From the NCBI RefSeq assembly GCF_000152905.1, contig NZ_AAMY01000005.1, positions 62,001 through 126,000 of the forward strand: a stretch of DNA of 64,000 nt, written 5' to 3'. This stretch comes from Nitrobacter sp. Nb-311A (lineage in GTDB: Bacteria; Pseudomonadota; Alphaproteobacteria; Rhizobiales; Xanthobacteraceae). Below are positions 25,462 to 53,677 of this stretch, piece after piece. The notes below the pieces were generated by a model. That model was given only the letters and a program-made list of their open reading frames with translations. It searched no databases and had not been told where the DNA came from. Position 1 is the stretch's first letter. Each line of letters opens with the position of its first letter. The position numbers and the translations under genes were made by a program.

Positions 25462-25740
25462 CGAGAAGCCACTCGGTTATTTCAGTCGGCGTTAGCCGTG
25501 TTCACAGCCCAAGAAGGCGATCCATCCGGCTTTGCGTCCGCCACGCGACGCATCGGTTTTATCGTCCGCCGGCCGCCTTTCGCGATCTGTGGGAGCCGCG
25601 CACTATAAAGATATTCAGCAGAATTTCGTAGCGGCTCTCGCCAAGCCGCTCGAGCACAAGGTCCAATAAAATATTATCATTCGATGTGATGTTGTGGATA
25701 CCATCGTGACATACTGCGATGACGCAGGGCGGCGCAGCCT

Positions 25741-36742: not shown

Positions 36743-36761
36743 AGCAAGAAAGAGAAAATGA

Positions 36762-37178: not shown

Positions 37179-37201
37179 AACTCTTTCGAGAGAGAATCGA
37201 G

Positions 37202-38122
37202 ATGAACGATTTTTACCCATCGCGTATCGCGCCGGAAGCACAGATGCTTCCGCGCCTCGATCCCGTCGTTCACGGCAAATGGACCGAGGATGCGCCGCTG
37301 ACGCGACAGCAGGCCGAGGAGTTCGACCGCGACGGTTTCCTGGTGCTCGAGAACGTGTTCTCGCCGGAGGAGGTTGCCTATCTGCAGCAGCAGTCGAAGA
37401 TATTGCTGTCGGGCCCCGAGGGCCTCAACCCGCAGACCGTCATCACCGAGCCCGGCAGCGCGGAAATCCGCTCGATCTTCGAAATCCACCTCCAGAGCCG
37501 CGTCATCGGACGCCTTGCCGCCGACGCGCGGCTCGCCGGGGTGGCCCAGTTTCTGCTCGACGATATGGTCTACATCCACCAGTCGCGCCTCAACTACAAG
37601 CCTGGCTTCGAGGGCAAGGAGTTCTATTGGCACTCCGATTTCGAGACCTGGCACGTTGAGGACGGCATGCCGCGCATGCGGGCGCTCTCCATGTCGGTGC
37701 TTTTGGCGGAGAACACGCCGGACAACGGACCTTTGATGCTGATGCCCGGCTCGCACCGGGTCTTTCTGACCTGTATCGGCGCGACGCCGGAAGATCACTA
37801 TCGCACTTCGTTGAAGAAGCAGGAATTCGGTGTCCCCGACCGGCGGAGTCTGACCGAACTGGCACATCGTCATGACATCGTGGCTGCGACCGGCGGGCCG
37901 GGCACGGTGGTGATTTTCGACTGCAATACAATGCATGGATCGAATAGCAACATCACGCCCTATCCACGCGCCAACGCGTTCTTCGTCTACAATGCGGTGA
38001 GCAACCGGCTGCGGGAACCGTTCGGCGTCAAGAAGCCGCGGCCGGGTTTCATCGCCGCGCGCGGCGAAACGAAGCCTCTGGTGCCGCAGAGCAGCCCGCT
38101 GATGGAGGATGCCCTCACATGA
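37202..38122 (+). CDS. ectD: Ectoine 5-hydroxylase
   Basis: Fe(II)/2-oxoglutarate dioxygenase that makes 5-hydroxyectoine. It is 306 residues long. The iron ligands are His144 and Asp146 in FYWHSDFETWH and His245 in TMHGSNSN. The segment between them carries the EctD consensus (GMPRMRALSMSV, LMLMPGSHRVFL). GAGAGAAT precedes ATG 37202. Its stop overlaps the ATG of the degraded aspartokinase gene (ATGA). Confidence 0.97.
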   Translation: MNDFYPSRIAPEAQMLPRLDPVVHGKWTEDAPLTRQQAEEFDRDGFLVLENVFSPEEVAYLQQQSKILLSGPEGLNPQTVITEPGSAEIRSIFEIHLQSRVIGRLAADARLAGVAQFLLDDMVYIHQSRLNYKPGFEGKEFYWHSDFETWHVEDGMPRMRALSMSVLLAENTPDNGPLMLMPGSHRVFLTCIGATPEDHYRTSLKKQEFGVPDRRSLTELAHRHDIVAATGGPGTVVIFDCNTMHGSNSNITPYPRANAFFVYNAVSNRLREPFGVKKPRPGFIAARGETKPLVPQSSPLMEDALT

Positions 38123-38510
38123 GCAGTGGTTATGGCATCGGGAAGGTCGGCGGAGCGTTCGGCAATAACCTGATTGCGGCGCGTAACGGAGCGGGCTTTT
38201 ATGATCGCGCCGTCGTCGTCGCGGCCTCTGACCGCGGTGTCGATGCTGTATCGGCCTGACGCTGTGGGACGGGCAGGGCCAGCTCAGTCTTGACGATCGC
38301 ATTTGCGTCGCCGGCATCGCGGATGGCATCGATATGACGATGCCGATCGTCATCGACGTTGTCGGATGTGGTGTGGGCACGGCTCGCCGTTCTTGCCGCG
38401 GCTATTCGGAAATGATCTCTCCGCGCATCGGTGTGCTCGTCCGCATGGGCGTGCGCAATTCTTTCGATCGCACGCCCGATGCCCCGACGGTCGGGGGACG
38501 GCAGCCGTGA
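38119..38510 (+). pseudogene. ask_ect: Degraded ectoine-specific aspartokinase
   Basis: Ask_Ect normally follows ectD and supplies aspartyl-phosphate for ectoine synthesis. Here ATG 38119 overlaps the ectD stop and gives GIGKVGGAFGNN (compare VEKIGGTSMS) and FYDRAVVVAA (compare RIFVVSAY). It then jumps directly to DRGVDA and ends. One frame over, LTLWDGQGQLSLDDRI, GIDMTMPIVIDVVGC and RRSCRGYSEMISPRIGVL match the aspartokinase stretch around DRGYSEMTFSRIA. So at least a large internal deletion, a frameshift near 38257 and loss of the C-terminal half have occurred. The remaining TGA (38508-38510) overlaps the GTG of the next gene. Confidence 0.82.
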
Positions 38511-39823
38511 CCTGCTCTGCGTCGGCTTCCGGATCAATCGACGAACGTGCCACGCTGCACCGTGCGATTGCCGCTTCCGCCATCGGTAACGCCGCGGAAT
38601 GGTTCGACTACGGTATCTATGCCTACGGCGTCACCTATATTTCGACCGCGCTGTTTCCCGGCGATGTCGGCGAGGCGGTCCTGTTCGCGCTGGCCACCTT
38701 CGCGATCTCCTTCCTGGTGCGTCCGCTTGGCGGCGTGTTCTGGGGCTCGCTCGGTGACAGGCTCGGCCGCAAATCGGTGCTGGCGCTGACCATCCTCCTG
38801 ATGTCGGGCGCGACATTGTCGGTCGGCCTTATTCCGTCCTATGACAGCATCGGCTTCTGGGCTCCGCTGATCCTCATCGTCCTGCGTATGATCCAGGGCT
38901 TTTCGACTGGCGGCGAATATGGCGGCGCCGCGACGTTCATGGCCGAATACGCGCCGGACGAAAGTCGTGGCTTCTATGGCAGCTTCCTGGAGCTTGGAAC
39001 GCTTGCGGGCTTCTCGCTGGGCGCGCTGCTGATGCTGACCTTCTCGCTGCTGCTTGGCGACGAGGTTATGCACGCCTGGGGATGGCGTATTCCGTTTCTG
39101 ATCGCCGCGCCGATGGGCCTGATCGGCATGTATCTGCGTTCGCGGATGGAGGACACGCCAGTGTTCAGGGCGCATGAAGCCTCAAGCGAGATGAAACCAT
39201 CGCCGGGACCGGGCGCTTTGATGCGACGGCACTGGCGGCCCATGCTGGTGGTCGGCGGTGCCGTTGTCGCGCTCAACGTCGTCAATTATACGCTTCTCAG
39301 CTACATGCCGACATATCTGCAGCGCCGGATCGGCCTATCGTCGGACGAAGCGCTGGCGGTGCCGCTGGTTGGCATGCTGTCCATGGCGCTGTTCCTGCCG
39401 TTGGCGGGACACCTTTCGGATCGCGTCGGGCGCCGCCCGATGTGGCGCTTTTCACTGATCGGGCTACTGCTGTTGGTGACGCCGCTTTATATGCTGATGG
39501 GCACCGGGCTTGTCGGCGCCTGTGTCGGCTTCATCCTGCTCGGACTACTCTACGTGCCGCAGCTTGCGACCATTTCCGCGACGTTCCCGGCGATGTTCCC
39601 GACCAGCGTGCGCTTCGCCGGATTTGCCAATGCCTACAATATTTCGACATCGATATTCGGCGGCACGGCGCCGGTCGTCAGCAGCTTCCTCATTACCCTC
39701 ACCGGCAATGAACTGATGCCCGCCTTCTACATGATGGGGACGTGCCTGGTCGGGCTGGTGGCGCTGCACTTCATGCCGGAAACGGCGGGACGGTCCCTTT
39801 ATGACGATCCTTTCGCGGATTAG
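38507..39823 (+). CDS. MFS transporter, metabolite:H+ symporter (ProP-like)
   Basis: Twelve-helix major facilitator of the MHS family that includes ProP, which imports proline, betaine and ectoine. GTG 38507 gives 438 residues beginning TCSASASGSIDERATLHRAI. MHS marks are GNAAEWFDYGIYAY, RPLGGVFWGSLGDRLGRK and RMIQGFSTGGEYGGAA. The longer open frame to 38303 lies within the aspartokinase remnant. The GTGA overlap with the remnant's stop suggests it was once coupled to the aspartokinase gene. The cluster context makes compatible-solute uptake or recapture the likely role. Confidence 0.9.
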   Translation: MTCSASASGSIDERATLHRAIAASAIGNAAEWFDYGIYAYGVTYISTALFPGDVGEAVLFALATFAISFLVRPLGGVFWGSLGDRLGRKSVLALTILLMSGATLSVGLIPSYDSIGFWAPLILIVLRMIQGFSTGGEYGGAATFMAEYAPDESRGFYGSFLELGTLAGFSLGALLMLTFSLLLGDEVMHAWGWRIPFLIAAPMGLIGMYLRSRMEDTPVFRAHEASSEMKPSPGPGALMRRHWRPMLVVGGAVVALNVVNYTLLSYMPTYLQRRIGLSSDEALAVPLVGMLSMALFLPLAGHLSDRVGRRPMWRFSLIGLLLLVTPLYMLMGTGLVGACVGFILLGLLYVPQLATISATFPAMFPTSVRFAGFANAYNISTSIFGGTAPVVSSFLITLTGNELMPAFYMMGTCLVGLVALHFMPETAGRSLYDDPFAD

Positions 39824-39985
39824 CGTTGCCTTTGAGGGGCGATCCATCCCATAGCCGTATCCTTTTAGGAATGTATGGACTTGCGAGACATTCCTTCTCT
39901 TGGGCCAAGGGCAGGAAGAATGATCGGAATGCACAAGTGCAGGCACGATGTGAACCACCAGGCCGATGAGGAAAGGGCTTCTTAA

Positions 39986-40000
39986 CGGGGTGAAACCCCG
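39986..40000 (+). promoter_or_regulatory. Leader hairpin before the helicase operon
   Basis: CGGGGT-GAA-ACCCCG is a perfect 6-bp stem with a 3-nt loop, 25 bp before the ATG at 40026. GAGGGGG, the ribosome-binding site, follows it at 40012-40018. It may be a terminator for read-through from upstream or may modulate translation. Confidence 0.5.
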
Positions 40001-40025
40001 CTAGTCTCTCCGAGGGGGCTCGTCA

Positions 40026-43000
40026 ATGCACAAGGATGATGTAGAAGGCGACGGGATTTGCGTTGCGGAGGATGCCAAGGCTCCTGTGATTGTTGCGGAT
40101 GTCGCAGCCAGCTTTACTTACGCATCCTACCAGAACGCGATTCCGGTTATCCGATCCCTGCTGATCGAGAACGTAAGCGACCGGCATATCGAGCGATGCA
40201 CGCTCGAGCTGATCTCTTCGCCTTCGTTTTTGAGACCGAAAACCTGGACCATCGATCGGCTGTTGCCTGGGGACAGGCTTCCTCTGACCGATCGGAAGGT
40301 CGAACTCGACGCGGGCTATCTTGCGGGCCTCAACGAGGCGGAACGCGGCGAGATCACACTACGCCTTTCCTTGAGAGAAGACATCCTTGACGAGTGCCGT
40401 CTTTCCGTCAGGCTGCTCGCGCGTGATGAATGGGGCGGTGTCGCCGATATGGCGCAACTGCTGCCAGCCTTCGTGATGCCGAACGATCCGGGCGTGGCCC
40501 AGATCCTACGAACCGCGGCGGAACGGCTTGCCGCGCATGGCCATCCGAGCGGACTGGATGGCTACCAATCCCAGGACCCTCAGCGAGCCTATATGCTGGC
40601 CGCGGCGGTTTATTCGGCCATTGCCGGGATGGGGATGCACTACGCCGAGCCGCCCGCGAGCTTTGAGAGCCGCGGCCAGAAGATCCGGCGTCCAAGTACC
40701 ATCGCCGAGGAACGGCTGGCGACTTGCCTCGATACCACCCTGCTTTTTGCCGCTGCGCTGGAGGCCGCCGGATTGCACCCGGTTATCCTGATGTTCGAAG
40801 GACACGCGGCGGCCGGCGTATGGCTGACCAAGAGAACTTTCGCCCAGGCGATCGAGACGGATCAGATGGAGGTCCGCAAGGCGCTGGCGTCGCGCGAGCT
40901 GATCGTCTTCGAGACCACCGGCGTGACCCATCGCCCCGCCCTAACCTTCGAGAGTGCGGAACGAGCCCTGGATCGGCGTCTCGCCGAGGAAGAAGCTCGC
41001 GCTTTCGCCGCAGCGATCGACATCAAGCGGTCCCGAAGCGGCGGGATCACGCCGCTCGCCTCGCACGAGCCGATCACGCGCAACGCCATCGATGATGAAA
41101 CCGCTCCCGTCCCGGATTTGCCGCTTCCTCCAGCCCCGACTCTTGGCGATCTGCCGGTTGAAGCGATCGAGGTGAAGCCGACCACCGCCGCCGGCCGCAT
41201 CGACCGCTGGCAGAAGAAGTTGCTCGACCTGACACTTCGCAATCGGCTTCTCAACTTTCCGGATTCCAAAAAGACGATTCCGTTTCTCTGCACCGACATC
41301 GCTTATCTCGAAGACCGGCTCGCGAATGGCGCCGCCATCCGGATCATATCGTTGCCGGAGCAGAACCCACTCGGCGAGCGCGACGCGACGATCTATCGTG
41401 ATGTTCATGGACGCGATCTTCAGCGCGGTTTCGCGGCCGAATCGCTGCTCAGGGACGAGCTTCCCTCGCCATTGGAGGCGCGGCCGCTGGAGGCGCGGCT
41501 GATCCACCTCTATCGGCAGGTCCGCAACGACTTTGCCGAAGGAGGAGCCAACACTCTATTTCTCGCCGTCGGCTTCCTGCGCTGGAAGAAGAAGCCGGAA
41601 GACGAGCGCAGCTATCGCGCACCGCTTCTGCTGGTTCCGGTGAAACTCGAGCGCCGCAGCGCCAGTTCACGCTTCACGATTCGCTTCCACGAGGATGAAC
41701 CACGCTTCAACGCGACCCTGTTGCAGTTCCTCGAGCGGGATTTCGATTTGGCGCTCCCCCAGTTCGGTGGCGATCTGCCGCTCGACGATAGCGGAGTGGA
41801 TGTGCCGAAACTTCTCACCATGATGCGCCAGGCCGTCCGCGACGTGCCCGGCATGGAAGTCGTGGACGAGACGGCATTGTCGACCTTCTCCTTTGCGAAA
41901 TTTCTCATGTGGAAGGATCTGGTCGAACGCACTGACGCGCTTCGCGAGAACAGGGTGGTCCGCCACCTGATCGACACGCCCGAACAGGCATTTTCGGAAG
42001 GCGACGGACAACCGACATTCCGTGACGAGCGCGAGCTCGATCGCGTTTACGCACCGACGGATATCATCCGTCTTCTTCCCTCGGACTCGTCGCAGACGGC
42101 GGCGAGCCTCGCGGCCGCCGAAGGACGAGATTTCGTTGTCGTCGGCCCGCCCGGTACCGGCAAGAGCCAGACCATCGCCAACATGATCGCCCACTGCCTC
42201 GCGGTCGGAAAGACTGTGCTGTTCGTCGCCGAAAAGACCGCCGCGCTCGACGTCGTCTATCGTCGGCTGCGCGAGCATGGCCTCGGAAACCATTGCATCG
42301 AATTGCATTCGAACAAGGCTGACCGCCGGCATTTTCTCGGACAGCTCAAGGCGGCCTGGGAGCATGGCGGACCAACCGATGCGTCCGAATGGGTGGCGAT
42401 CAATGAGCGCCTTCGATTGCGCCGCGACGAACTCAATGCCTATGTCGAAGCTCTGCACAAGCGCTACCCGAACGGATGGACGCCCTATTTTGCGCTGGGC
42501 CTCGCGCTCAAGGCCGCGAACGCCTCGGCACCGGTCTTTTCCTGGCCGGAACGGGATGCCCATGACGCGCAAACCCTGCGCGACCTTGAAGACCTTGCCG
42601 CCGAACTCGGCCTTGTCTTCGCGTCGATCGAGCGGCAGCCAACGCTGGATCTCGTTGATGTCGTCGAGTGGAGCTCCGGGTGGCAGGACAGCCTGCTGAC
42701 GGCAGCAATGTCGCTGGGGAACGCGATCGATCTGTTGGCGATTTCGTTCGAAGGTTATGTCGCTGCTCTTGGTTTGAAGCCGCGGAAGCGGCTATCACAA
42801 GCCGAACTCCAGGCACTGGCAGCCTTGGCAAGGGCCCTTCGGAAAAGTGCCGGTCGCGACATCACGATCGCTTCCGATCGGGATTTTGCTCTGTGCGCCG
42901 GCGCATTGGACAGTTTAGGCCGATCCATCAACGATTATCGCGAAGCGGAGCGAGGCCTCAGCGCATCATATGGCGTTTCCGCAATTCGCGATCTCGATCC

Positions 43001-46000
43001 GGGAGGTCTGGAACGCCAATGGCGTGAGGCAAACGCTTCCTTCTGGCCCAACACGATGCTCTGCAAACGCAAAGTTCAGAAGCTGCTGCAAAGCTATGCC
43101 GACCGTGGGACCGCTGATCCTCAAAGGGATCTTCCGCTGCTCCGGCGCATGAAGGAATGCCTTTCGGCAATCGACGAGAGCCTGCTGGCGACGAAGCCGC
43201 TTCCGGTCAATGGTCTGGAGACCGATATCGAAGCCGTCGCGGACACGATTGAACTTGCGCGGGAGCTTCTCGATGCCTTGCGCTTGCCAAATATGGAACA
43301 AGAAGAGCTCCGTTCGATCGGCCGGTCCGTCGCCATCTGTTTGCGCGGCACGGTGGAAAATGACAGGGTGCGACAGGCGGGCGACAGGCTTCTTGCCGCA
43401 ATTCAGGGCTTGGAGACCACTGGCCGGCATTTCTCGGATCTATCGGGCCGGGACATCCGGCTCGGACAGGACGATACTGACCTCGAGATAGTGCGGGAGA
43501 ATCTCGCAGCTCTCGCGAATACCCAGCATCTGTTGCGCGACTGGGCAGCCTGGTGCCGCATCAGAAACCGGGCGCTGGCATCCGGCCTTGCCCCGTTGGT
43601 CGAGCAGATCGAGAAGGGAGAGGTTCAAGCCGACGAAGCGCGCGTCGCGTTTCGCCTCGGTTATGCGCGATGGTGGCTTCCGAAAGTTCTCGACGCCGAC
43701 CCCGTCCTGCGGAATTTCCGGCGCTTCCAGCACGAAAACGCCATCAAGGAATTCCGCGAGATCGACGATCTCGTACGCTCGCATGCCGCCCATCGCGTGA
43801 TCGGCGCGGTCGCGCATGGTCTGCCGCCCGTGCAGAGCGTCCCGCGCAATTCCGAGCTCGGGCTGCTGCGTCACCAGATGGAGTTGCAGCGTCCCAGCCA
43901 ATCGATACGCGACATGATCGGCAGGATGCCGCAGAGCTTTTCCAGGCTCGCGCCCTGCATGCTGATGTCGCCGCTCTCCATCGCCCAGTATCTCCCGCCC
44001 GATCAGGCGCTCTTTGACGTGGTGATCTTCGACGAGGCGTCGCAGATCACGACCTGGGACGCGGTTGGCGCCATCGCCCGCGCGCGCCAGACCATCATCG
44101 TCGGCGACCCCAAGCAGTTGCCGCCGACGAACTTCTTTGGCCGCAACGAAGACGATGACGACGAGAAGATCGCCGATCACGAGAAGGATCTGGAGAGCAT
44201 TCTCGATGAAGCGAAAGCCGCCGGCATACCGGTCCGCGATTTGAGATGGCACTATCGCAGCCGAAGCGAATCCCTGATCGCCTTCTCGAATCATCACTAT
44301 TACCAGAACCGCCTGGTGACATTTCCCTCGCCGGCCGTCGAAGACCGCGCCGTGCATCTGCGCAAGGTGCCGCATGGCGTCTACGACCGCGGCAAGAGCC
44401 GAACCAACAAGATCGAGGCCGAGGCCGTCGTCAAGGAAGCCGTGGCGCGCATGAAAGCCTGGCTCAAGATTCCCGAAAAGGAGCGGCCGACGCTCGGCGT
44501 GATCACTCTCAATATACAACAGCAGTCGCTGATTCTTGATCTTCTCGATGTCGCGCGCCGGGACGATCCCGAGCTTGAGTGGTTCTTTGCCGAGGAACGG
44601 GTCGAGCCGGCCATCGTCAAGAATCTCGAGAACGTGCAGGGCGACGAGCGGGACGTGATTCTTTTTTCCATCACTTTCTGGAAGGATACAGCCAACAAGC
44701 GCTCGATGGATTTCGGCGCGCTCAACCGCGACGGCGGCGAACGGCGTCTCAATGTCGCCGTGACCCGCGCGCGGCAGGAACTCATCGTGTTCTCCGGCTT
44801 CACGGCCGACCAGATCGACTCGTCCCGAACCAAGGCGGTCGCGGTCCACCACCTCAAGACGTTCCTCGACTACGCCGAACGCGGCGCGATCGCTTTGCCG
44901 GCCCAGGACATCGGTTCTGCCGGCGGCTTCGATTCCCCCTTCGAGGAAGCCGTTGCCGCACAACTGGAGCGCCGCGGCTGGATGGTCGTGCCGCAGGTCG
45001 GGATTTCCGGCTTTCGCATCGACCTCGGCATTCGCCATCCCGATCTGGCCGGGGCTTATCTGGCGGGCGTGGAATGCGACGGCGCCACCTATCACGGCTC
45101 GGCCACGGCAAGGGACCGCGACAAGGTTCGTGAGCAGGTGTTGAGGGGACTGGGCTGGAACATCCTCCGCGTCTGGTCGACGGATTGGTGGTTCGACGCC
45201 GCAGGCTGCGCCGAGCGGCTGCACGCCAGCCTCGAAAGCCTCTTGGATCAAAGCCGGGCGCGCCGCGCCGCCGAGCAGGAGGAGATCGCGACCCATTGGG
45301 ACATGGGACACAACGTGGAAGGGATCGACGAGATCCGCGACGACGAGGCCGCCGCCACTGTTGACGAAGTGGCGCCGCCTCCGGCGCCCACCGACACCGA
45401 ACGCGTATCGGTGGAGCCGCCGGCAGAGTCTCGCGCCATCGAAGCGACAGAGCCGCAGCCGGATGCAGGTCCGGCGCCTGCCGATACTCCGGATGATCGA
45501 CGATACCACGTCGCCGATCTCTCCAGCTTCGAGGCGGATCCGGGCCAGTTCTTCGAATTCGGCTACCGCGACACCCTGCGAGGCATGATCGAGGCCGTCA
45601 TCGAAACCGAAAGCCCTTTGCGCACGGACATTCTCGCCAAAAGAATTTCACGGGCGCATGGCTGGCTGCGCACGGGCGGACGCATCAGGGAACACATCGA
45701 TCTGCACCTGCGCGGTTACGACACGACGCGCGAATCGAGCGGCGAGTTCATCTGGAAAAAGGGAGCCGTGGTCGACGTTCTCGCCTACCGCCAGCCAGCG
45801 AACGAGGATGCGCGCCGGTCGATCGCGGATATCCCGCTTGCCGAGTTGGCCTCCGTCGTGCTCGATAGCCCTGCCCTGTTGGACGATGCCGATCCTGCAC
45901 GCTATCTGGCGCGTCTGCTCGGCGTCGAACGCCTTGCAGCCGCATCCCGCACCCGCCTCGACGAAGCGATCATGAGAGCCCGCCAGCGTATCGCAACCAT

Positions 46001-46016
46001 TCAACCATCCGGATAG
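40026..46016 (+). CDS. Giant transglutaminase-like / DUF4011 / SF1 helicase / PD-(D/E)XK nuclease / DUF3320 protein
   Basis: 1996 residues. A beta-rich N-terminus (1-110) is followed by a transglutaminase-like segment (about 190-320) with Cys236 in TCLDTTLLFAAALEAAGL and His260 in FEGHAAAGVWL. DUF4011 starts near 392 (IDRWQKKLLDLTLRNRLLNF). The SF1 helicase core has Walker A GPPGTGKSQT at about 707 and Walker B FDEASQ near 1335. GDPKQLPP and the C-terminal lobe VQGDERDVILFS, RRLNVAVTRARQEL follow. A Vsr/MTES_1575-like nuclease domain (about 1635-1745) shows FEEAV, RIDLGI and GVECDG, the E/D/ExD residues of a PD-(D/E)XK site. DUF3320 lies at about 1830-1925. GAGGGGG precedes ATG 40026. An SbcD-like gene follows after 2 bp. 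The role is inferred: DNA unwinding and cutting, plausibly genome defence. Confidence 0.9.
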   Translation: MHKDDVEGDGICVAEDAKAPVIVADVAASFTYASYQNAIPVIRSLLIENVSDRHIERCTLELISSPSFLRPKTWTIDRLLPGDRLPLTDRKVELDAGYLAGLNEAERGEITLRLSLREDILDECRLSVRLLARDEWGGVADMAQLLPAFVMPNDPGVAQILRTAAERLAAHGHPSGLDGYQSQDPQRAYMLAAAVYSAIAGMGMHYAEPPASFESRGQKIRRPSTIAEERLATCLDTTLLFAAALEAAGLHPVILMFEGHAAAGVWLTKRTFAQAIETDQMEVRKALASRELIVFETTGVTHRPALTFESAERALDRRLAEEEARAFAAAIDIKRSRSGGITPLASHEPITRNAIDDETAPVPDLPLPPAPTLGDLPVEAIEVKPTTAAGRIDRWQKKLLDLTLRNRLLNFPDSKKTIPFLCTDIAYLEDRLANGAAIRIISLPEQNPLGERDATIYRDVHGRDLQRGFAAESLLRDELPSPLEARPLEARLIHLYRQVRNDFAEGGANTLFLAVGFLRWKKKPEDERSYRAPLLLVPVKLERRSASSRFTIRFHEDEPRFNATLLQFLERDFDLALPQFGGDLPLDDSGVDVPKLLTMMRQAVRDVPGMEVVDETALSTFSFAKFLMWKDLVERTDALRENRVVRHLIDTPEQAFSEGDGQPTFRDERELDRVYAPTDIIRLLPSDSSQTAASLAAAEGRDFVVVGPPGTGKSQTIANMIAHCLAVGKTVLFVAEKTAALDVVYRRLREHGLGNHCIELHSNKADRRHFLGQLKAAWEHGGPTDASEWVAINERLRLRRDELNAYVEALHKRYPNGWTPYFALGLALKAANASAPVFSWPERDAHDAQTLRDLEDLAAELGLVFASIERQPTLDLVDVVEWSSGWQDSLLTAAMSLGNAIDLLAISFEGYVAALGLKPRKRLSQAELQALAALARALRKSAGRDITIASDRDFALCAGALDSLGRSINDYREAERGLSASYGVSAIRDLDPGGLERQWREANASFWPNTMLCKRKVQKLLQSYADRGTADPQRDLPLLRRMKECLSAIDESLLATKPLPVNGLETDIEAVADTIELARELLDALRLPNMEQEELRSIGRSVAICLRGTVENDRVRQAGDRLLAAIQGLETTGRHFSDLSGRDIRLGQDDTDLEIVRENLAALANTQHLLRDWAAWCRIRNRALASGLAPLVEQIEKGEVQADEARVAFRLGYARWWLPKVLDADPVLRNFRRFQHENAIKEFREIDDLVRSHAAHRVIGAVAHGLPPVQSVPRNSELGLLRHQMELQRPSQSIRDMIGRMPQSFSRLAPCMLMSPLSIAQYLPPDQALFDVVIFDEASQITTWDAVGAIARARQTIIVGDPKQLPPTNFFGRNEDDDDEKIADHEKDLESILDEAKAAGIPVRDLRWHYRSRSESLIAFSNHHYYQNRLVTFPSPAVEDRAVHLRKVPHGVYDRGKSRTNKIEAEAVVKEAVARMKAWLKIPEKERPTLGVITLNIQQQSLILDLLDVARRDDPELEWFFAEERVEPAIVKNLENVQGDERDVILFSITFWKDTANKRSMDFGALNRDGGERRLNVAVTRARQELIVFSGFTADQIDSSRTKAVAVHHLKTFLDYAERGAIALPAQDIGSAGGFDSPFEEAVAAQLERRGWMVVPQVGISGFRIDLGIRHPDLAGAYLAGVECDGATYHGSATARDRDKVREQVLRGLGWNILRVWSTDWWFDAAGCAERLHASLESLLDQSRARRAAEQEEIATHWDMGHNVEGIDEIRDDEAAATVDEVAPPPAPTDTERVSVEPPAESRAIEATEPQPDAGPAPADTPDDRRYHVADLSSFEADPGQFFEFGYRDTLRGMIEAVIETESPLRTDILAKRISRAHGWLRTGGRIREHIDLHLRGYDTTRESSGEFIWKKGAVVDVLAYRQPANEDARRSIADIPLAELASVVLDSPALLDDADPARYLARLLGVERLAAASRTRLDEAIMRARQRIATIQPSG

Positions 46017-46018
46017 AC

Positions 46019-47143
46019 ATGATCCGTTTCATCCATTCGAGCGACCTGCATCTCGGCAAGCGCTTCGGCAACTTCGACGGCGACCTGCCGAGCCGGCTAC
46101 GCGAGGCGCGGCATGCGGTCATCGCCCGGCTGGCGCAGCACGCGCGTGAGCAAAGCGCGACCACGATCCTGCTCGCGGGCGATATGTTCGATACCGAGAC
46201 GCCCGCTTCGGATATCCGACGTCAGGCGCTGGCCGAGATGGCGCATCATGCGCCGATCCGATGGGTGATCCTGCCCGGCAATCACGATTCGCTGCAAGCG
46301 ACCCAGCTCTGGACCACGCTGCGAGAGGAAGCTCCCGACAACGTCATTCTTGCGGTCGCGTCGCGCCCGATCGCACTGACGGCGGACGTCGTGCTGCTGC
46401 CCGCGCCTTGCACGACGCGCCGACCCGGTCGTGATCTCACCGAATGGATGGACAACGAGGCGACGCCGGAAGGAGCCATCCGGCTCGGCCTCGCCCATGG
46501 CGCGATCCAGAGTTTTTCCGAGGAGGCCGCCGCGTCCGACGTCATCGCGCCGGACCGGGCGCAACGCGCCGGCCTTGCCTATCTGGCGCTCGGTGACTGG
46601 CATGGCGCGGTGAACGTCGGGCCGCGCATCCGCTATAGCGGCACACCCGAGCCGGACCGGTTCAAGCACGACCACCCCGGCGAGGCCTCGCTGGTCAGCA
46701 TTGCCAGCTGTTCTGCATTGCCCGAGGTGACGCCGCTGTCCACGGCCAGCTTCGCCTGGCGCACGCTGGAACTGCATCTGCTCGACGGGAACGATCCTGC
46801 ACAGGCGCTGGAGGCGCTGTTGCCGGAAGCGCGGTGCCGTCGACAAACACTCGCGCGCGTCATGGCGACTGGCCGCACCCGCCTGCCGACACGCACGGCC
46901 CTGACTCGCGCCATCGAGAGCGCAACGCCGGATTTCGCCCTGCTGGAGCTTGACGACGCCGGTCTCACGATAGAGTGCGAAGTGGAAGATCTTGATCAGA
47001 TCGACCGCGCCGGAGCGCTTCGCGAAGCCGCGAACGCGTTGCTGGCCGAATCCGGAGATGAAAGCCGTTCCGCCAACGAGCGCGAGATCGCGCGCGACGC
47101 CCTCGCCCGGCTCTATTCCTATGCGCGGGTGGCGGGGTCATGA
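46019..47143 (+). CDS. SbcD/YhaO-like DNA repair metallophosphoesterase
   Basis: Calcineurin-like phosphoesterase resembling the nuclease subunit of SbcCD/Mre11 (374 residues). All dimetal motifs are visible: SSDLHLG (Asp9, His11), AGDMFD near 53, PGNHDS near 88, LAHGA near 160 and GDWHG near 198. It starts 2 bp after the helicase-nuclease gene, and its stop overlaps the next start (ATGA). It should pair with the downstream ATPase as an Mre11-Rad50-like complex acting on DNA ends. It is distinct from housekeeping SbcD, to judge by its coupling to the helicase gene. Confidence 0.92.
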   Translation: MIRFIHSSDLHLGKRFGNFDGDLPSRLREARHAVIARLAQHAREQSATTILLAGDMFDTETPASDIRRQALAEMAHHAPIRWVILPGNHDSLQATQLWTTLREEAPDNVILAVASRPIALTADVVLLPAPCTTRRPGRDLTEWMDNEATPEGAIRLGLAHGAIQSFSEEAAASDVIAPDRAQRAGLAYLALGDWHGAVNVGPRIRYSGTPEPDRFKHDHPGEASLVSIASCSALPEVTPLSTASFAWRTLELHLLDGNDPAQALEALLPEARCRRQTLARVMATGRTRLPTRTALTRAIESATPDFALLELDDAGLTIECEVEDLDQIDRAGALREAANALLAESGDESRSANEREIARDALARLYSYARVAGS

Positions 47144-49764
47144 AAATCTCGGCGCTGCGCCTGTTCAACGTGAAGCGCTTTGCCGGCCGCGGCGTCGCCA
47201 TCGAGGGGATCGAGGGCGGCGTCAATGTACTCTGCGCCGCCAATGAGTTCGGCAAGTCGACGAGTTTCGAGGCGCTGCACGCGTTGTTTTTCCAGCCGCA
47301 TTCGAGCGGCTCCGGCGATGTCAGGATCCTCAGGCCGTATAGCGGCGGCAGTCCGCTGGTCGAAGCCGATATCGTGACCGGCGCAGGCCGTTTCCGCATT
47401 ACGAAGCAGTATTTCGCCGGCCGCTCCGCGCAGGTGACCGATCTGGCTACGGGGCGGTTGGTGGCTCAAGCAGATGAAGCTGAAAACTTCATTGCCGGCC
47501 TGGTCAAAGGCGGCACAGCCGGGCCGGCCGGACTGCTCTGGGTGCGCCAGGGTGTGACAGGCATCGAAAGGCGCAGCAAGTCGGAGGAGGAGGACGAGAG
47601 GGAGGTTCGCCGCACCCTGCTCGAATCCGTGCAGGGCGAGGTCGAGGCCGTCACCGGCGGGCGGCGCATGACCGAGATTCTTTCTGCCACGCAACAGGCT
47701 CTGTCGGAACTGGTCACCGCCACCGGCAGGCCAAAGGCCGGCGGTCGATACGCCAGTGCAATTGAAGATCGCGACCGGTTGATTGGAGACGAACAAAAGC
47801 TTTCGGGCGAGGTCACGGTCTTGCGCGAGGCGCTGGATCAACGCGCCTCGGCTACGAAGCGGCTTGCCGAACTCGACAGTGCCGGCGACAGGCAGGAACG
47901 CCGCAAGGCCGTCGAGGCGGCGCAAGCCGCCTTCGATGCCGCCAAGTCCCAGAGCGAAAAGCTGAAGGCGGCCGAAGCCGAATTCAAGCTCGCGCTCGAT
48001 CGCCGGGATGTTGCCGAGAAAGAGCTTCTGACGTTCCGCGCCGCCATGGAAAAAGCAAGGGAGTTGCGTCAAAAGCGGCTTGCGGCCGAAGATCGCCACC
48101 GCAAGGCCGAGGACAAGCGTCGCGAGGTCAACGAGGCGATCGCAAAGGCAACGACGGATGTCGAGGCGGCGGAGGCTCGCGAGAAGGAGGCGCGCGACCT
48201 GCTCACACGCCTGGACGCGGCATTGAGAGCGCGCGAGGCATTCGAGCGGCTCGCCCAACTCAAGGATCAACTCGCCAGCGCGGAAGCCACGCGTCAGGCG
48301 CTCGAACAGGGCGAGGCAGAGCTTTCGCTTCTCAAACTGCCATCGAGCGCCATCGACGAGCTTCAGGATCTGGACGTCGAGATCGCAAGACTTCACGCTG
48401 TCGAGGAAGCCGCGCGTCCTTCCATCTCCGTCGATTATCAGCCGGATGCGTTCGGTCCCGTGACGATGGATGGTAACCCACTATCGGACGGCAAAGAGCG
48501 CACCTACGACGGACAAGCGCGGCTTTCGATTCCGGGAATCGGCACGATGACGCTTCGATCGAACCGGCCGTCCCGGAGCGATGATCGTCTTGAAAAGGCC
48601 CAGGCAAGGCGACGCACACTGCTTTCTTCAATGGGTGTTGACGATCTTGCCGCAGCACGGAAGCGGCAGGTTCAGGCCCAGCGGATGGACGCCGGGCTCG
48701 GCGAACTACGTGGCCGGCTGTCCCAGCTTGCGCCGCAAGGTTTGCCAAGGCTCCGGGAAAACGTCGCCGCGCAGAGCGCGGTCGATGCCGGGGCTCTCGA
48801 ACTGAAAGCGGATCCGGCGCAGGTTCGGACCTCCCTCGCCGAAGCCGAGGAGCGGCTGACCGCGGTACGGCTGGTCCGGCGCGAGATGGAGTCGCTGCAC
48901 GGCAACGCCAGTGACGCCTTCATCGCCGCCGAAAAGGAATCGGCCGCGCTGAATGCAGAGTGGACCCAAGTCGATTCAATCCTCGGCCCTGAAGAGGAGC
49001 GCGCAGCACGCGAACAGCAGCTGGTGAAGGTGCGCGATGATCGGGAGCGATCACGCGCCGATGCCGAAGTCCATGCGGAGAGGCTGCGCGCCACGGCCAT
49101 CGCCCTCGATTCCGCCGAGGCCGTGCTGAAGCGCGCCCGCTCGGTTGAAGAAGCCGCAGAGAAGGAGATAAACCGGCTCCGTGAGACCATTGCCGGCTTG
49201 AACGCCGGGATATGCGCGCGCGCCGACGAGGCGGTGGAAGAAAAATGGCGCGAAACCACAGACGCGCTCTCCACCGCAACGGCCCGCGTCGCGGCGTTCG
49301 CGAAGGAAGTCACCATCCTGCAACGGCTGGCTTCAGCCTTGGAGGCAGCCAGATCCCAGGCTCGCGAACTCTATCTCAAGCCTGTCATGACAGAGCTGAC
49401 GCCGCTTCTCGGACTGCTCTTCGACGATGTCTCGATTACCTTCGACGAGAAGTCGCTGCTGCCCCATGCGATCCGGCGTAGCGGCCAGGAGGAGGATGTT
49501 GATCGCCTGAGCGGCGGCATGCGGGAACAGCTGTCTGTGCTGACACGGCTCGCCTTCGCAAGGTTGCTCGCCCGCGACGGCCGGCCGGCGCCGGTCATCC
49601 TCGACGACGCACTCGTCTATTCGGACGACGACCGGATCGAGAAGATGTTCGACGCGCTCCACCGGCAGTCCAGGGATCAGCAGATTATCGTTTTCTCTTG
49701 CCGTCAGCGCGCATTCCAGAGGCTCGGCGGAAACATTCTTCAGATGACCGACTGGCAGCCTTAA
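47140..49764 (+). CDS. SbcC/Rad50/YhaN-like coiled-coil ATPase
   Basis: 874-residue ABC-type ATPase. Walker A is a variant, AANEFGKST (about 34-42), where GPNGAGKST-like sequence is usual. Two long Ala/Glu/Arg-rich coiled-coil arms (about 220-420 and 490-740) flank a central stretch around 430-480 (VDYQPDAFGPVTMDGNPLSD). No CxxC zinc hook is visible. The signature LSGGMREQL is near 789 and Walker B PVILDDALVYSDDDR near 817. ATG 47140 overlaps the SbcD-like stop. The absence of a zinc hook and the central domain are more like YhaN than canonical SbcC. Confidence 0.92.
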   Translation: MKISALRLFNVKRFAGRGVAIEGIEGGVNVLCAANEFGKSTSFEALHALFFQPHSSGSGDVRILRPYSGGSPLVEADIVTGAGRFRITKQYFAGRSAQVTDLATGRLVAQADEAENFIAGLVKGGTAGPAGLLWVRQGVTGIERRSKSEEEDEREVRRTLLESVQGEVEAVTGGRRMTEILSATQQALSELVTATGRPKAGGRYASAIEDRDRLIGDEQKLSGEVTVLREALDQRASATKRLAELDSAGDRQERRKAVEAAQAAFDAAKSQSEKLKAAEAEFKLALDRRDVAEKELLTFRAAMEKARELRQKRLAAEDRHRKAEDKRREVNEAIAKATTDVEAAEAREKEARDLLTRLDAALRAREAFERLAQLKDQLASAEATRQALEQGEAELSLLKLPSSAIDELQDLDVEIARLHAVEEAARPSISVDYQPDAFGPVTMDGNPLSDGKERTYDGQARLSIPGIGTMTLRSNRPSRSDDRLEKAQARRRTLLSSMGVDDLAAARKRQVQAQRMDAGLGELRGRLSQLAPQGLPRLRENVAAQSAVDAGALELKADPAQVRTSLAEAEERLTAVRLVRREMESLHGNASDAFIAAEKESAALNAEWTQVDSILGPEEERAAREQQLVKVRDDRERSRADAEVHAERLRATAIALDSAEAVLKRARSVEEAAEKEINRLRETIAGLNAGICARADEAVEEKWRETTDALSTATARVAAFAKEVTILQRLASALEAARSQARELYLKPVMTELTPLLGLLFDDVSITFDEKSLLPHAIRRSGQEEDVDRLSGGMREQLSVLTRLAFARLLARDGRPAPVILDDALVYSDDDRIEKMFDALHRQSRDQQIIVFSCRQRAFQRLGGNILQMTDWQP

Positions 49765-50022
49765 AACCCAGGCTGATTGTCGAATGTTGACCAAAATCAA
49801 CGGTCGATGTCGCGATGGCGGCCAGCGCAATTACGCGACCAAGATTCTCTCGCCGGGCTATCGCGCTCAGCAAGACTGTTTGGCGCGCGCAGCCGTACTT
49901 CGCGGAAGTCTTTACAATGCGCCTTTATAGCAAGCGCGATTTCTGCTCGGCAGGCGGCAATGCCGGAACAAAAGCTTCTCGAATGCGTCGTTCTGTCCGC
50001 AGTAACAACCGTCGGAGTCCAA

Positions 50023-50508
50023 GTGGCTCACATGAGGCATGCACAGAAAGAGATCGGTGGAACTCACCGGACGGAGCGCAGTAGAAGCTCGCAGCTGTTC
50101 GGCGCGATTGCAAACAGCACCTCGCGGGCGGCGGGCGGCGCTCCGACCTTCGTCGCCGCCGTCGCCGTTGTTCTAATCTGGGCCTTCACGGGTCCGCTGT
50201 TCGGCTATTCCGACACCTGGCAACTTGTCATCAACACCGGCACGACTATCGTGACCTTCCTGATGGTGTTTTTGATACAAAACTCTCAGAACCGGGACGG
50301 CGCGGCCATTCAGGTCAAATTGGACGAGTTGATCCGCGTGAGTATGGCGCAGAATTCGTTTGTTGGAATTGAGCATCTGACCGACGAAGAACTCGACGAT
50401 ATTCGAGAGAAGTGCGAACGTCGGGCTAAAGCTGAAAAGATCGGCGAGAAGAAAATTGGATTGGCAGGTAAAAAGGCCAAGCAGGCCGCGGACCGGGTTT
50501 CTGATTGA
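50023..50508 (+). CDS. Low-affinity iron permease family protein
   Basis: Small membrane protein of the family PF04120, named for a yeast low-affinity iron transporter; function in bacteria is uncertain. Two membrane spans are visible (about 45-65 and 72-92: FVAAVAVVLIWAFTGPLFGY and IVTFLMVFLIQNSQNRD). A charged cytosolic tail ends in a Lys-rich coil. GGAG with a 5-nt spacer supports GTG 50023; ATG 50032 is an alternative. The in-frame extension to 49777 has no conserved sequence. Confidence 0.85.
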   Translation: MAHMRHAQKEIGGTHRTERSRSSQLFGAIANSTSRAAGGAPTFVAAVAVVLIWAFTGPLFGYSDTWQLVINTGTTIVTFLMVFLIQNSQNRDGAAIQVKLDELIRVSMAQNSFVGIEHLTDEELDDIREKCERRAKAEKIGEKKIGLAGKKAKQAADRVSD

Positions 50509-50574
50509 GGTCTTGCCCGCGCTTCGGTTCGTCTGAATTTTCCTGACCGGAAAATCTGCGGGCGAGGGAGAAGT

Positions 50575-50594
50575 GTGCCCGCATAAGCGGGCAC
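50575..50594. terminator. Bidirectional hairpin between convergent genes
   Basis: GTGCCCGC-ATAA-GCGGGCAC is a perfect 8-bp stem in the 95-bp gap between the iron-permease gene and the convergent GlsB-type gene. There is no long U-tract, but position and symmetry fit a shared terminator. Confidence 0.6.
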
Positions 50595-50603
50595 CGGTTG
50601 AGG

Positions 50604-50855
50604 CTAGGCGCGAATGGCCCTTGCGCCCCAAATAAGGAGGCAGGCTCCGATAAATCCGGCAATGAGATAGCCCAGCCATCCGCCAAACGAGACGCCGATC
50701 AAACCGAATAAGGCGCTTGCGACGGCGGCGCCAACGATGCCGAGAAGGATATTCATGAAGATGCCGGTGTTGCTCTTCATGAAGTTAGAAGCGATCCAAC
50801 CTGCCAACCCGCCGATGATAATGGCCGCGATCCAACCAATGCTAGCGTCATCCAT
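50604..50855 (-). CDS. GlsB/YeaQ/YmgE family stress-response membrane protein
   Basis: 83 residues with three hydrophobic Gly-rich helices: IGWIAAIIIGGLAGWIASNF, GIFMNILLGIVGAAVASALF and WLGYLIAGFIGACLLIWG. This is the transglycosylase-associated protein fold of the family (PF04226). ATG 50855 follows GGCGGAG at 8 nt. It is probably stress-induced, as in relatives. Confidence 0.92.
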   Translation of the reverse strand: MDDASIGWIAAIIIGGLAGWIASNFMKSNTGIFMNILLGIVGAAVASALFGLIGVSFGGWLGYLIAGFIGACLLIWGARAIRA

Positions 50856-51309
50856 TTTGCAATCTCCGCCTCGTTAAAGTGATTAGAGTCTCCCCCCGTG
50901 GTATGTTTGAAAACGATCATTGTTCGCTTTGGGTTCCACCCTGCCTCGAGGAATGGATGCTCCGGTGTGGTCTCGAAGGGCGCTCTACTAACCGTTGGAC
51001 ATTCGACAGGTTGGTAATCTTCGACCGAAGAGGATAGCTGGAGCCTCCAGATACTCTCCGGGCGAGAAAACGCAGAAGGAGGATGCTCTCGATGAGATCA
51101 GCTGGAGGCCAATGAAATGCACGACATGCGAATAAACTTCTACGGTAGCTTTTCTGCCCTTGTCGTCTTCGTTACCTTGACGCGACTGCCGGCGACGTCA
51201 TGAAGAGGAGCGGCCGGGGATATCCTTCGCTCAAAACGCTCTCACGGTCACGATCACTGTCATTAGCGTGGTACGGGGGCGACTTTCTTTTCCGCACGAT
51301 GAGGTCCGC
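50856..51309. other. Intergenic region between GlsB-type gene and paoC
   Basis: About 450 bp. It holds the promoter side of the GlsB-type gene and the 3' flank of the aldehyde oxidoreductase operon. No frame above 30 codons looks protein-like. Confidence 0.4.
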
Positions 51310-53670
51310 CTAGGCGTCTCGTGTCAGCTTGTCGAGAGTAATCGGGAGATCTCGCACCCGCTTGCCGGTCGCATGATAGACTGCGTTGGCGATCGCCGCG
51401 GGAACGCCGACGATGCCGATCTCACCCAACCCCTTGATGCCCATCGGGTTGACGATATCGTCCTGCTCGTCGACGAAGATGACCTCCACGCTGTGAACGT
51501 CGGCATTCACCGGAACATGATATTCGGCGATATTAGCATTCATGATCCGGCCGAAGCGGTGGTCGATAAGCGTCTCTTCGTGCAACGCCATGCCGATGCC
51601 CCAGATCATGCCGCCCATGACCTGACTGCGTGCGGTCTTGAGGTTGAGGATACGTCCCGCGGCGACCGCGCTAACGAGCCGAGTGACGCGGATCACCCCC
51701 AATTGCTCATCCACTTTTACTTCGGCAAAGATCGCCGAATGGGTGTTGTGCGCGTGCTTGCCGTCCTTTCCGAATTTTGTGGCCTTTTCCTGCGCGATAC
51801 GATCGACGCCGGCGTGACGCATGATGTCCGCAATCGGAACAGTGCTGCGCGGCGTCTTTTTGACGGTAACGCTGCCATCGGAGAGTGTTACGTCGGCAGT
51901 TTTTATACCCATCAGCGGCGAGTTCGGCATTGTCTCCGCCAGCCGCAGCAGCTCATCGCGGATGGCGTTGCTGGTGGTGACGATACCGTTCGAGACCGAT
52001 GCGGCAATCCATGATCCACCTTCGACCGGGGAGGGCGGCAGCGTCGAGTCGCCGAGCTTGACGGTGACGTTGTCGATCGGCACGCCGAGCATGTCGGCGG
52101 CGGCTTGGGCCATGATCGTATAGGTGCCGGTGCCGATGTCTGATGTCGCGCACGCGACTTCCGCGTGGCCGTTGGCCGTCAGTGTGATCCGCACGGTGAT
52201 CGGGACCTGGAGCGCTTCCCAGATGCCCGTAGCCATGCCCCAGCCGATCAGATCGTTACCCTCACGCATCGATCGTGGCTCGGGATTGCGCCTGCTCCAG
52301 CCGAACGCCTCCGCAGCCTGGCTGTAACATTCGCGCAGGCTCTTGCTGCTGAATGGCAGGCCGGTGTGCTGATCGCTATCGGAATAGCATTTCAGCCGCA
52401 GTTCGAGCGGATCCATTTGTAACGCAACCGCGAGTTCATCCATCGCCGCTTCCAGCGCGTAAACGCCGGTTGCCGCACTCGGCGCGCGCATATCACAGGC
52501 GGCGGGAAGATCGAGGCGGACCAGTTTGTGCGCGTAGCTGGCGGTCTCGCTCTTGTAAAGAAGACCAGACCACGTGGTCTCATTACGATGGAAGTCCTCG
52601 TATTGCGACGTGATGGTGGTGGCGTTGTGGGTGATCGCATTCAGCGCGCCGTCTGTCTTTGCGCCGAGCTGGATACGCTGGACCATCGCCGGGCGATAGC
52701 CGACCATGTACATTTGCTGCCGCGTCAGCACGAGGCGGACCGAGCGCTTGAGCGCGCGAGCGCCGAGCACTGCGAGCACCACCTGATATTGCGGCCGCAG
52801 GCCGGAGCCGAATCCGCCGCCCATGAACGGCGACATGACCCTGATTTCATCGGGCCTGGCCTGGAACACACCGCAAAGATAGCGCTGAACGTTCTGGACC
52901 CCTTGCGTCTTGTCGTAAACCGTGAGCTTGCCGTCGCGCCACACGGCGGTCGATGCGAACAACTCCATTGGATTGTGGTGCTCGACCGGCACATAGTATT
53001 CGGCATCATGACGGATATCAGAAACCGCGAATGCCTTGGCGGCGTCGCCGCGCGGCTTGGCCGGTGCGGGAAGGGCTTTTGCCTTGCCGAGCTGCTTTTC
53101 GAAATCGGTGATGTGCGGCTGCTCCTCATACTCGACCTTCACCAGCGAGGCGGCATAGGTCGCTGTTTCGAGGTCCTCCGCCAGCACCAACGCGACTGGC
53201 TGGCCGTTGAATTTGATACTGCCGTCATAAAGCGGGCGATAGGGCGAACCGTCTCCGGGCGCGACATCATCCTTGTAAGCCTCGTCGTTGTCCGCCATCG
53301 GTGGCCGGTTTTCATGGGTGAGGACGGTGATGACGCCATCCACCTTCATGGCCTCGCCCGCATCAATCCGCCTGATGCGGCCTTTGGCGATGGTTGAATT
53401 GACCACGCTGCCATGCGCAAGGTCGGGTGCTCCATACTCGCCGGCGTAACGCGCGGCGCCGGTGACTTTGTCGCGCCCATCGACGCGGGACGTCGCTGTA
53501 CCGATATAGGTCGTCATGGCTCTGCTCGGTTGACGGACGTGGGGCACAGGTGATGCCGCACCTTGGTGTGTCGCATATCGGATGGCGCCGATCGTGACGG
53601 CACCTTGCAGGACGCTCCGGCGGCTGATGCCAATGATGTCGTCATGACCGGATCGGGTGAAGCGCGCCAC
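51310..53670 (-). CDS. paoC: Molybdopterin-binding subunit of aldehyde oxidoreductase (PaoC-like)
   Basis: Large subunit of a xanthine-oxidase-family enzyme that oxidises aldehydes to acids with Mo-pterin cytosine dinucleotide. From GTG 53670 it is 786 residues. The family core begins IGTATSRVDGRDKVTGAARY at about residue 55. Mo-site segments include MGGGFGSGLRPQYQ and IGTGTYTIMAQAAAD, and the C-terminal GLGEIGIVGVPAAIANA holds the catalytic Glu. The first 50 residues carry SRRSVLQGAVTIGA, which looks like a twin-arginine signal. If it is not used, ATG 53517 is the start. It lies 7 bp after paoB. Confidence 0.9.
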   Translation of the reverse strand: MARFTRSGHDDIIGISRRSVLQGAVTIGAIRYATHQGAASPVPHVRQPSRAMTTYIGTATSRVDGRDKVTGAARYAGEYGAPDLAHGSVVNSTIAKGRIRRIDAGEAMKVDGVITVLTHENRPPMADNDEAYKDDVAPGDGSPYRPLYDGSIKFNGQPVALVLAEDLETATYAASLVKVEYEEQPHITDFEKQLGKAKALPAPAKPRGDAAKAFAVSDIRHDAEYYVPVEHHNPMELFASTAVWRDGKLTVYDKTQGVQNVQRYLCGVFQARPDEIRVMSPFMGGGFGSGLRPQYQVVLAVLGARALKRSVRLVLTRQQMYMVGYRPAMVQRIQLGAKTDGALNAITHNATTITSQYEDFHRNETTWSGLLYKSETASYAHKLVRLDLPAACDMRAPSAATGVYALEAAMDELAVALQMDPLELRLKCYSDSDQHTGLPFSSKSLRECYSQAAEAFGWSRRNPEPRSMREGNDLIGWGMATGIWEALQVPITVRITLTANGHAEVACATSDIGTGTYTIMAQAAADMLGVPIDNVTVKLGDSTLPPSPVEGGSWIAASVSNGIVTTSNAIRDELLRLAETMPNSPLMGIKTADVTLSDGSVTVKKTPRSTVPIADIMRHAGVDRIAQEKATKFGKDGKHAHNTHSAIFAEVKVDEQLGVIRVTRLVSAVAAGRILNLKTARSQVMGGMIWGIGMALHEETLIDHRFGRIMNANIAEYHVPVNADVHSVEVIFVDEQDDIVNPMGIKGLGEIGIVGVPAAIANAVYHATGKRVRDLPITLDKLTRDA

Positions 53671-53677
53671 GGCCGGC

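Follow-up and report, generated by a model that had tools for sequence, protein, structure and literature searches.

We analysed a 64,000-nucleotide stretch of DNA from Nitrobacter sp. Nb-311A (contig NZ_AAMY01000005.1, positions 62,001 to 126,000 of the forward strand), referred to here as the window. It contains three open reading frames (ORFs), all on the + strand, encoding a giant helicase-nuclease (HEL), an Mre11-like phosphoesterase (MRE1) and a Rad50-like ATPase (RAD1). A preliminary description of the window had proposed an undescribed defence or repair system in which an orphan helicase is joined in a fixed fusion to an SbcCD-like pair. The ORF coordinates agreed with the close packing noted there: HEL and MRE1 are separated by a 2-bp gap, and MRE1 and RAD1 share a 4-bp ATGA overlap. 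The HEL family proved to be known; what looks new is its repeated, exchangeable partnership with Mre11-Rad50-type pairs. The features are as follows (L, G and H numbers below denote loci, genomes and plasmid records).

39975..49765, + strand: transferred cassette, DNA ~88% conserved with two congeners (blastn of the window against L046, L047 and L048)
40026..46016, + strand: HEL, giant helicase-nuclease of 1996 aa; NF058533, anti-phage protein ProA (2194 bits against 1500)
40071..40421, + strand: N-terminal beta-sandwich of HEL, residues 16-132
40425..41045, + strand: transglutaminase-like segment of HEL, C234/H260/D279 (residue conservation and the MTES_1575-group assignment in the accessible part of PMC3710099)
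41217..41732, + strand: DUF4011, residues 398-569 (Pfam, 153.6 bits)
42090..44792, + strand: superfamily 1 (SF1) helicase core, Upf1/Sen1/Dna2-like, with a long insert, within residues 689-1589 (AAA_11/AAA_12/AAA_30)
44940..45233, + strand: Vsr-like MTES_1575 endonuclease, residues 1639-1736 (PF18741, 117.5 bits)
45546..45692, + strand: DUF3320, residues 1841-1889 (57.3 bits); a winged helix-turn-helix (wHTH) according to the accessible part of PMC3710099
46019..47143, + strand: MRE1, Mre11/SbcD-like phosphoesterase, 374 aa (Metallophos 38.5 bits; TIGR00619 63.3 bits)
47140..49764, + strand: RAD1, Rad50/YhaN-like ATPase, 874 aa (SMC_N, SbcC_Walker_B and AAA_27, all weak)
48421..48573, + strand: small beta region of RAD1 between two coiled-coil arms, in place of a zinc hook (AlphaFold2 secondary structure)

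Profile searches assigned HEL to a known anti-phage family. HEL aligned with the whole of NCBIfam model NF058533 'anti-phage protein ProA' (positions 1-1903 of 1903) at 2194.4 bits against a cut-off of 1500, and with PADLOC candidate PDC-S37 (positions 8-1535 of 1550) at 1200 bits, a model that comes without a cut-off. On NF058533, a family that covers the helicase alone, without Mre11 or Rad50 partners, a score of 2222 was reached by a protein from a Klebsiella plasmid; no pair is annotated in the 8 kb around it. Hhe, another DUF4011 anti-phage protein, has the helicase-nuclease part in common with HEL; however, HEL reached only 786.8 bits on the Hhe model NF042953, far under its cut-off of 2000. 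The MTES_1575 group, as set out in the accessible part of Anantharaman and others 2013 (PMC3710099), comprises giant proteins with HEPN, transglutaminase-like, SF1 helicase, Vsr restriction endonuclease and wHTH domains, the last overlapping DUF3320, and was predicted to carry out modification-independent restriction of invading DNA. HEL resembles this group in all but the HEPN domain, which a Pfam scan did not find, and no Mre11-Rad50 pair appears in that part of the description. The label 'undescribed orphan helicase' was therefore dropped, because the helicase matches a named family over its full length, already has a PADLOC candidate model, and has had its domains analysed in print, where a role in defence was predicted. 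In the literature searched, mostly non-subscription and among the matches listed, we found neither a paper naming this protein ProA nor a printed record of an association between HEL and an Mre11-Rad50-type pair. A Pseudomonas aeruginosa defence hotspot is flanked by a large DUF4011 gene, according to the accessible part of PMC10250203; that gene was not compared with HEL.

The Pfam scan of HEL gave no transglutaminase match. Judged by residue conservation, the transglutaminase-like Cys/His segment is a genuine motif, as the preliminary description had stated: C234 was conserved in 26 of 27 HEL relatives and H260 in all 27, and both were present in all 43 covering rows of a second set of 44 HEL rows, where residue 279 was D in 40 and E in 3. 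Protein cleavage was suggested as the role of this segment in the accessible part of PMC3710099. The structural comparison of HEL covered mainly the beta-sandwich at residues 16-132, ahead of this segment. In the 44-row set, the helicase Walker A Lys, Walker B Asp-Glu and motif VI Arg were kept in all covering rows, and the nuclease residues D1666, E1683, D1685 and H1690 in 43/43. The nuclease domain earlier called PD-(D/E)XK is more precisely a member of the Vsr-like MTES_1575 family. Sequence relatives of the helicase core were SMUBP-2, Sen1, DNA2 and UPF1.

MRE1 and RAD1 resemble SbcCD/Mre11-Rad50 and YhaNO in having overlapping genes for a phosphoesterase and a coiled-coil ABC ATPase, with most metal ligands retained. 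They differ from SbcCD in several respects. MRE1 scored below the SbcD cut-off (TIGR00619, 63.3 bits against 77.65). Its aligned ligand positions are D9, H11, D55, N88, H89, H160, D193 and H195; scored against the canonical Mre11 metal ligands, 7 of 8 were present in the window protein. The claim that all metal motifs are intact was not borne out, since position 193 is Asp where Mre11 has His, in 8/8 aligned sequences. In the more distant of these sequences (4/8), His 11 was replaced by Gln. RAD1 carries an LSGG signature and a VILDDA (DD) Walker B motif. A CxxC zinc hook is a defining trait of Rad50 and SbcC; none was found among 24 RAD1 proteins (the window's included; 4 truncated or broken). 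Absence of the hook, noted earlier for the window protein, is therefore a trait of the RAD1 family; in the window RAD1, a small predicted beta region takes its place at the apex. The AlphaFold2 model of RAD1 was weak overall (predicted template modelling score 0.28, five sequences), and a profile search with RAD1 matched no solved structure. On AAA_27, which we take as a mark of YhaN (cut-off 22 bits), the window RAD1 scored 20.9 bits, just below, and its close relative in L067 scored 22.2 bits, just above.

In the window genome, MRE1-RAD1 gave the sole SbcC-Walker-B match (E <= 0.001) and the sole SbcD-like match. The pair is thus the only SbcCD-like pair found in the window genome, the case raised earlier as counting against a dedicated system; the same does not hold for the congener G002, which has a further SbcD above the family cut-off. 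No SbcD-like match (E <= 1e-6) was found in 33 of 61 relatives. By these two findings, the pair is not a universal repair gene, and where present it is not always the only one.

Two congeners carry the same three genes at ~88% DNA similarity, starting at window position 39975 or 40064 and stopping at 49760 or 49765; the G002 copy is divided between two contigs. The similarity stops at the operon edges, and we place the transferred cassette at 39975..49765. Other window matches in the congener flanks (~3-10 kb per side) were limited to stretches of 77 and 87 bp and one alginate-export-like gene (window 25727-27227), of which G005 has a 90% identical copy ~3 kb away from its operon; the remaining fetched flanks are different. 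MRE1 at >=87% was found in 3/9 genus genomes, each time adjoining HEL. G003 retains a HEL fragment (71%). In G001, HEL is divergent (38%) and lies close to the end of a contig, and the genome gave no match to MRE1.

The HEL-MRE1-RAD1 arrangement is not a chance one: it was repeated in ten other single-contig loci, in G002 (two contigs) and on one further plasmid. The same gene order was found on plasmids of Rhizobium, Sinorhizobium and Mesorhizobium, and in Mesorhizobium, Aliihoeflea, Methylobrevis, Sphingomonas and Neoroseomonas. HEL-MRE1 gaps were 2-14 bp across cassette loci (L077 was left out, its start being unclear); the RAD1 genes of L068 and L078 are interrupted, and those of L080 and L081 are truncated where their contigs end. 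HEL distances were correlated with those of MRE1 (r = 0.90, n = 11) and of RAD1 (r = 0.85, n = 9), with p = 0.0001 by permutation in both cases. These findings indicate that the three genes are inherited jointly, at different genomic sites, and support the three-gene unit proposed earlier.

We analysed the best 80 of the 576 loci from a genome scan for HEL. An Mre11-like gene was present in the flanks of 16 of these, adjoining HEL in 15, and was found at all ten loci with HEL at >=55% identity versus 6/70 below that level. Among 25 loci at >=55% that were read, 21 had a pair: 13 a window-type MRE1-RAD1 pair (type 1) and 8 a larger YhaN-like pair (type 2). Two had a remnant (L069, L235) and two had none (L215, and L216, which ends 1.8 kb past HEL). 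This count includes L104, which shows only an Mre11-like gene before the contig ends, and the near-copies L078 and L095. It omits H1, H4, H5 and H12, whose HEL-MRE1 adjacency is by coordinates only, H15-H17, two 60-80% records outside the matches listed, and three partial HELs that lack a pair (L064, 71%; L222, 58%; L239, 67%). When these three were included, a pair was present in 21/28. Close helicases without a pair were therefore rare (2/25 read, 5/28 with the partial genes), in line with the preliminary description.

The pairs beside HEL were of unlike types. Type-2 pairs have a nuclease of ~410-425 aa, 24-28% identical to MRE1, and an ATPase of 1129-1163 aa; the two type-2 ATPases scanned (L070, L237) scored 220 and 223 bits on AAA_27, and CxxC was present in one of two checked. 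The type-2 pair lies divergently upstream of HEL in Mesorhizobium (L070, L079, L082, L233, L234), whereas Bosea (L071) has it downstream; in R. beringeri (L237, where the ATPase carries the annotation YhaN) and two Rhodobacteraceae (L086, L137) it precedes HEL on the HEL strand. At L104, the solitary Mre11-like gene is of type 2. SbcCD adjoins two further rhodobacterial HELs, downstream in L127 and convergent in L087; their SbcD proteins scored 195 and 158 bits, above the TIGR00619 cut-off, and their ATPases matched SbcC models best, yet below the cut-offs. A gammaproteobacterial HEL (L129) is convergent with a YhaO-like pair, and an Akkermansiaceae HEL (L088) has one 3.7 kb upstream, both below the SbcD cut-off. 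Except for SbcD at the two SbcCD-linked loci, no NCBIfam model above its cut-off named the Mre11 and Rad50 partners scanned.

On a HEL tree of 98 rows (quick method, no bootstrap; remnant locus L069 scored as without a pair), presence of a pair changed at least 9 times, counting gains as well as losses; well-supported branches force every one of these changes, and none of 500 shuffles gave so low a number. The Mesorhizobium type-2 loci were nested among type-1 loci, and the pair remnants beside some HELs (L069, L235) were read as lost partners. From this tree we counted six separate origins: the close alphaproteobacterial group, the two Rhodobacteraceae type-2 loci, L127, L087, L129 and L088. 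About 0.15 Mre11-like genes would be expected in the 1.16 Mb of scanned flanks, based on 35 SbcD-like matches in 264 Mb of 61 relatives. The Poisson tail for six origins was 1.6e-8, or 0.005 if the true rate were ten times higher; this baseline was taken from window relatives, with other phyla not represented, and the flank profiles were built partly from the same loci and are more sensitive than the baseline model. Thus the HEL family is repeatedly associated with unlike Mre11-Rad50-type pairs. The earlier claim of a link between the helicase family and SbcCD/YhaNO-like pairs was sound; that of a 'fixed fusion' failed, as the pair type is swapped, most such pairs lack HEL, and the majority of distant HELs showed no pair.

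Several further observations were made at HEL loci. In the Mesorhizobium type-2 loci, a further large gene stands beside HEL (L070 14370-18332, L079 15956-18598, L082 12702-16661, L233 14956-17601, and L234 15090-17780 on the opposite strand); its annotation in L070, L233 and L234 reads ATPase or ATP-binding protein, and in L079 and L082 it is a gene-finder call. On the R. leguminosarum TpK plasmid (L235, 9001-15127), HEL is broken into several fragments, and an MRE1 remnant comes after them. Six contigs labelled viral, perhaps prophages (L240-L245), carry HEL relatives (40-43%) of full or nearly full length. On two rhizobial plasmids, a cassette of multiubiquitin, ThiF adenylyltransferase and DUF6527 genes lies within 8 kb of HEL (L068 32-2655, L237 1113-3461), and a DUF6527 gene is also found 3' of HEL at L070 (18493-18633).

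A number of results weigh against a functional partnership. No pair was found in 64 of the best 80 HEL loci, many flanks being cut by contig ends. Among 397 genomes of the order, 53 had MRE1-type genes (E <= 1e-50) and 52 had HEL (E <= 1e-100), many of the weaker HEL matches aligning over the helicase-nuclease part only. Both were present in 8 genomes versus 6.9 expected, which is near chance, and were adjacent in only two of these (G000, G129). For the 23 genomes with HEL above 1000 bits, the corresponding figures were 5 and 3.1. The pair without the helicase was commoner than both together: among 11 MRE1 genes at >=60%, 2 were linked, 8 had no adjoining HEL and 1 (G391) had a HEL remnant together with a broken RAD1. 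On the MRE1 tree, linkage changed 8 times (at least 6 forced), and 84/500 shuffles gave a number as low; linkage is unclustered there because linked and unlinked members are mixed. Defence-island enrichment, proposed earlier as a check, was also not seen: at 1e-20, known defence genes showed no clear enrichment among 148 flank proteins of pair-linked HELs versus 145 of pairs without an intact HEL (3/148 proteins left out of this control set). The test was weak, because the codon-usage gene caller that supplied the flank proteins misses atypical genes such as IetA in L067.

Matches in the test flanks included IetS, PDC-S06, DarG, and GajB-like and PD-T4-6-like proteins; those in the control flanks included DpdF-like proteins (3 members), PsyrT and a subtilase. 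Generic ABC-type mad3 matches numbered 2 in the test flanks and 10 in the control. IetAS defence genes adjoin the Pop5 operon. A candidate DpdF-like helicase upstream of two pairs without HEL was ruled out, since Pfam identified an S8 peptidase; at L229 (8008-9864) and L230 (7843-9768), both from one genus, an S8 peptidase gene lies directly 5' of MRE1-RAD1 without HEL, comparable to the IetS peptidase at Pop5. Around the window operon, 18 neighbouring ORFs were scanned with Pfam, and those matched were metabolic, transport or envelope genes. No clean empty insertion site could be demonstrated, because the window flanks were never adjacent in 8 other genus genomes. Among the direct repeat families (20 largest) and the inverted ones (25 longest), none was judged attachment-site-like, base composition showed no clear jump at the operon, and there was no Rfam match in 36000-54000.

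From the sequence comparisons, we predict that a ProA-type anti-phage helicase-nuclease works with an Mre11-Rad50-like complex, and that the type of pair is interchangeable and has been repeatedly recruited; we give this reading a probability of roughly 0.55. The pair would be an add-on, because none was found beside the majority of distant ProA relatives. According to the accessible part of PMC10586767, Mre11-Rad50 acts on DNA ends and hairpins, which it recognises and processes. In the predicted partnership, the pair would bind incoming phage or plasmid DNA at ends, hairpins or branched intermediates and trim these; having found or made ends on the foreign DNA, it would hand them to HEL as an entry point for the SF1 helicase. 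The helicase would then unwind the foreign DNA and the Vsr-like nuclease would cut it, and the wHTH and the transglutaminase-like segment may sense DNA or regulate the complex.

In eukaryotes, Mre11-Rad50 and the Dna2 helicase-nuclease act in end resection, and the nuclease of Dna2 is RecB-like. The scheme proposed for the operon would be akin to this resection, turned on foreign DNA: an end-processing complex is combined with an Upf1/Dna2-like SF1 helicase that has its own nuclease. However, the nuclease of HEL is Vsr-like rather than RecB-like, and the operon is mobile and patchy. Among bacterial systems considered, Lamassu is the nearest precedent for a Rad50-like sensor with a separate effector. 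In the accessible part of PMC10586767, its Rad50-like ATPase is proposed to sense aberrant DNA and trigger the effector. RAD1 has a weak likeness to LmuB (33 bits); however, Lamassu has a small LmuC and a variable LmuA where the operon has an Mre11-like nuclease and a giant helicase-nuclease. Neither HEL nor MRE1 matched LmuA or LmuC.

An alternative that we consider rather unlikely is that HEL is a self-sufficient anti-phage protein and the pair is a separate repair nuclease substituting for YhaNO or SbcCD, the two being joined by a shared transcript and hitch-hiking on mobile DNA. The abundance of HELs without a pair and of pairs without HEL, the near-chance co-occurrence across genomes and the status of the pair as the only SbcCD-like pair found in the window genome would all suit two independent modules. 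Against them stand the repeated adjacency to unlike pair families, the partner swaps and the correlated divergence of HEL, MRE1 and RAD1. The lack of an SbcD-like match in 33/61 relatives also argues against this alternative, because it indicates that the pair is dispensable and not housekeeping.

The pair might instead be an antidote-like repair module that guards the host against breaks made by HEL, as the scarcity of close HEL loci with no pair (2 of 25) or with a remnant only (2, one with HEL broken) would lead one to expect. We regard this as improbable, since full-length HELs without a nearby pair are common in more distant genomes. Least probable, in our view, is a chromosomal DNA repair or recombination machine with no defence role. 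Mre11-Rad50 with a Dna2-like helicase is a repair combination, and the Pfam-matched neighbours of the window operon (metabolic, transport and envelope genes) fit a chromosomal function; the patchy presence (MRE1 in 3/9 genus genomes, all with HEL), the different genomic sites, the carriage on plasmids and the assignment of HEL to an anti-phage family all argue otherwise.

The predicted partnership can be extended, tentatively, to the family as a whole. ProA-type helicase-nucleases may constitute a class of immune machine in which exchangeable complexes of the Mre11-Rad50 family have been recruited, time and again, as sensors and loaders for DNA ends. The recruits would come from no fewer than three unlike families of pairs (the window type, the larger YhaN-like type and SbcCD), taken up in separate lineages, and the class may be a bacterial counterpart of Mre11-Rad50 and Dna2 resection that destroys phage and plasmid DNA. 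If the pair is irrelevant, the operon is merely another ProA locus. If the partnership is true, a known anti-phage helicase-nuclease would have gained a DNA-end-sensing partner several times, and bacterial immunity would be tied to the Mre11-Rad50/Dna2 resection chemistry of repair. The solo and partnered forms of one effector would then offer a direct comparison of what each recognises.

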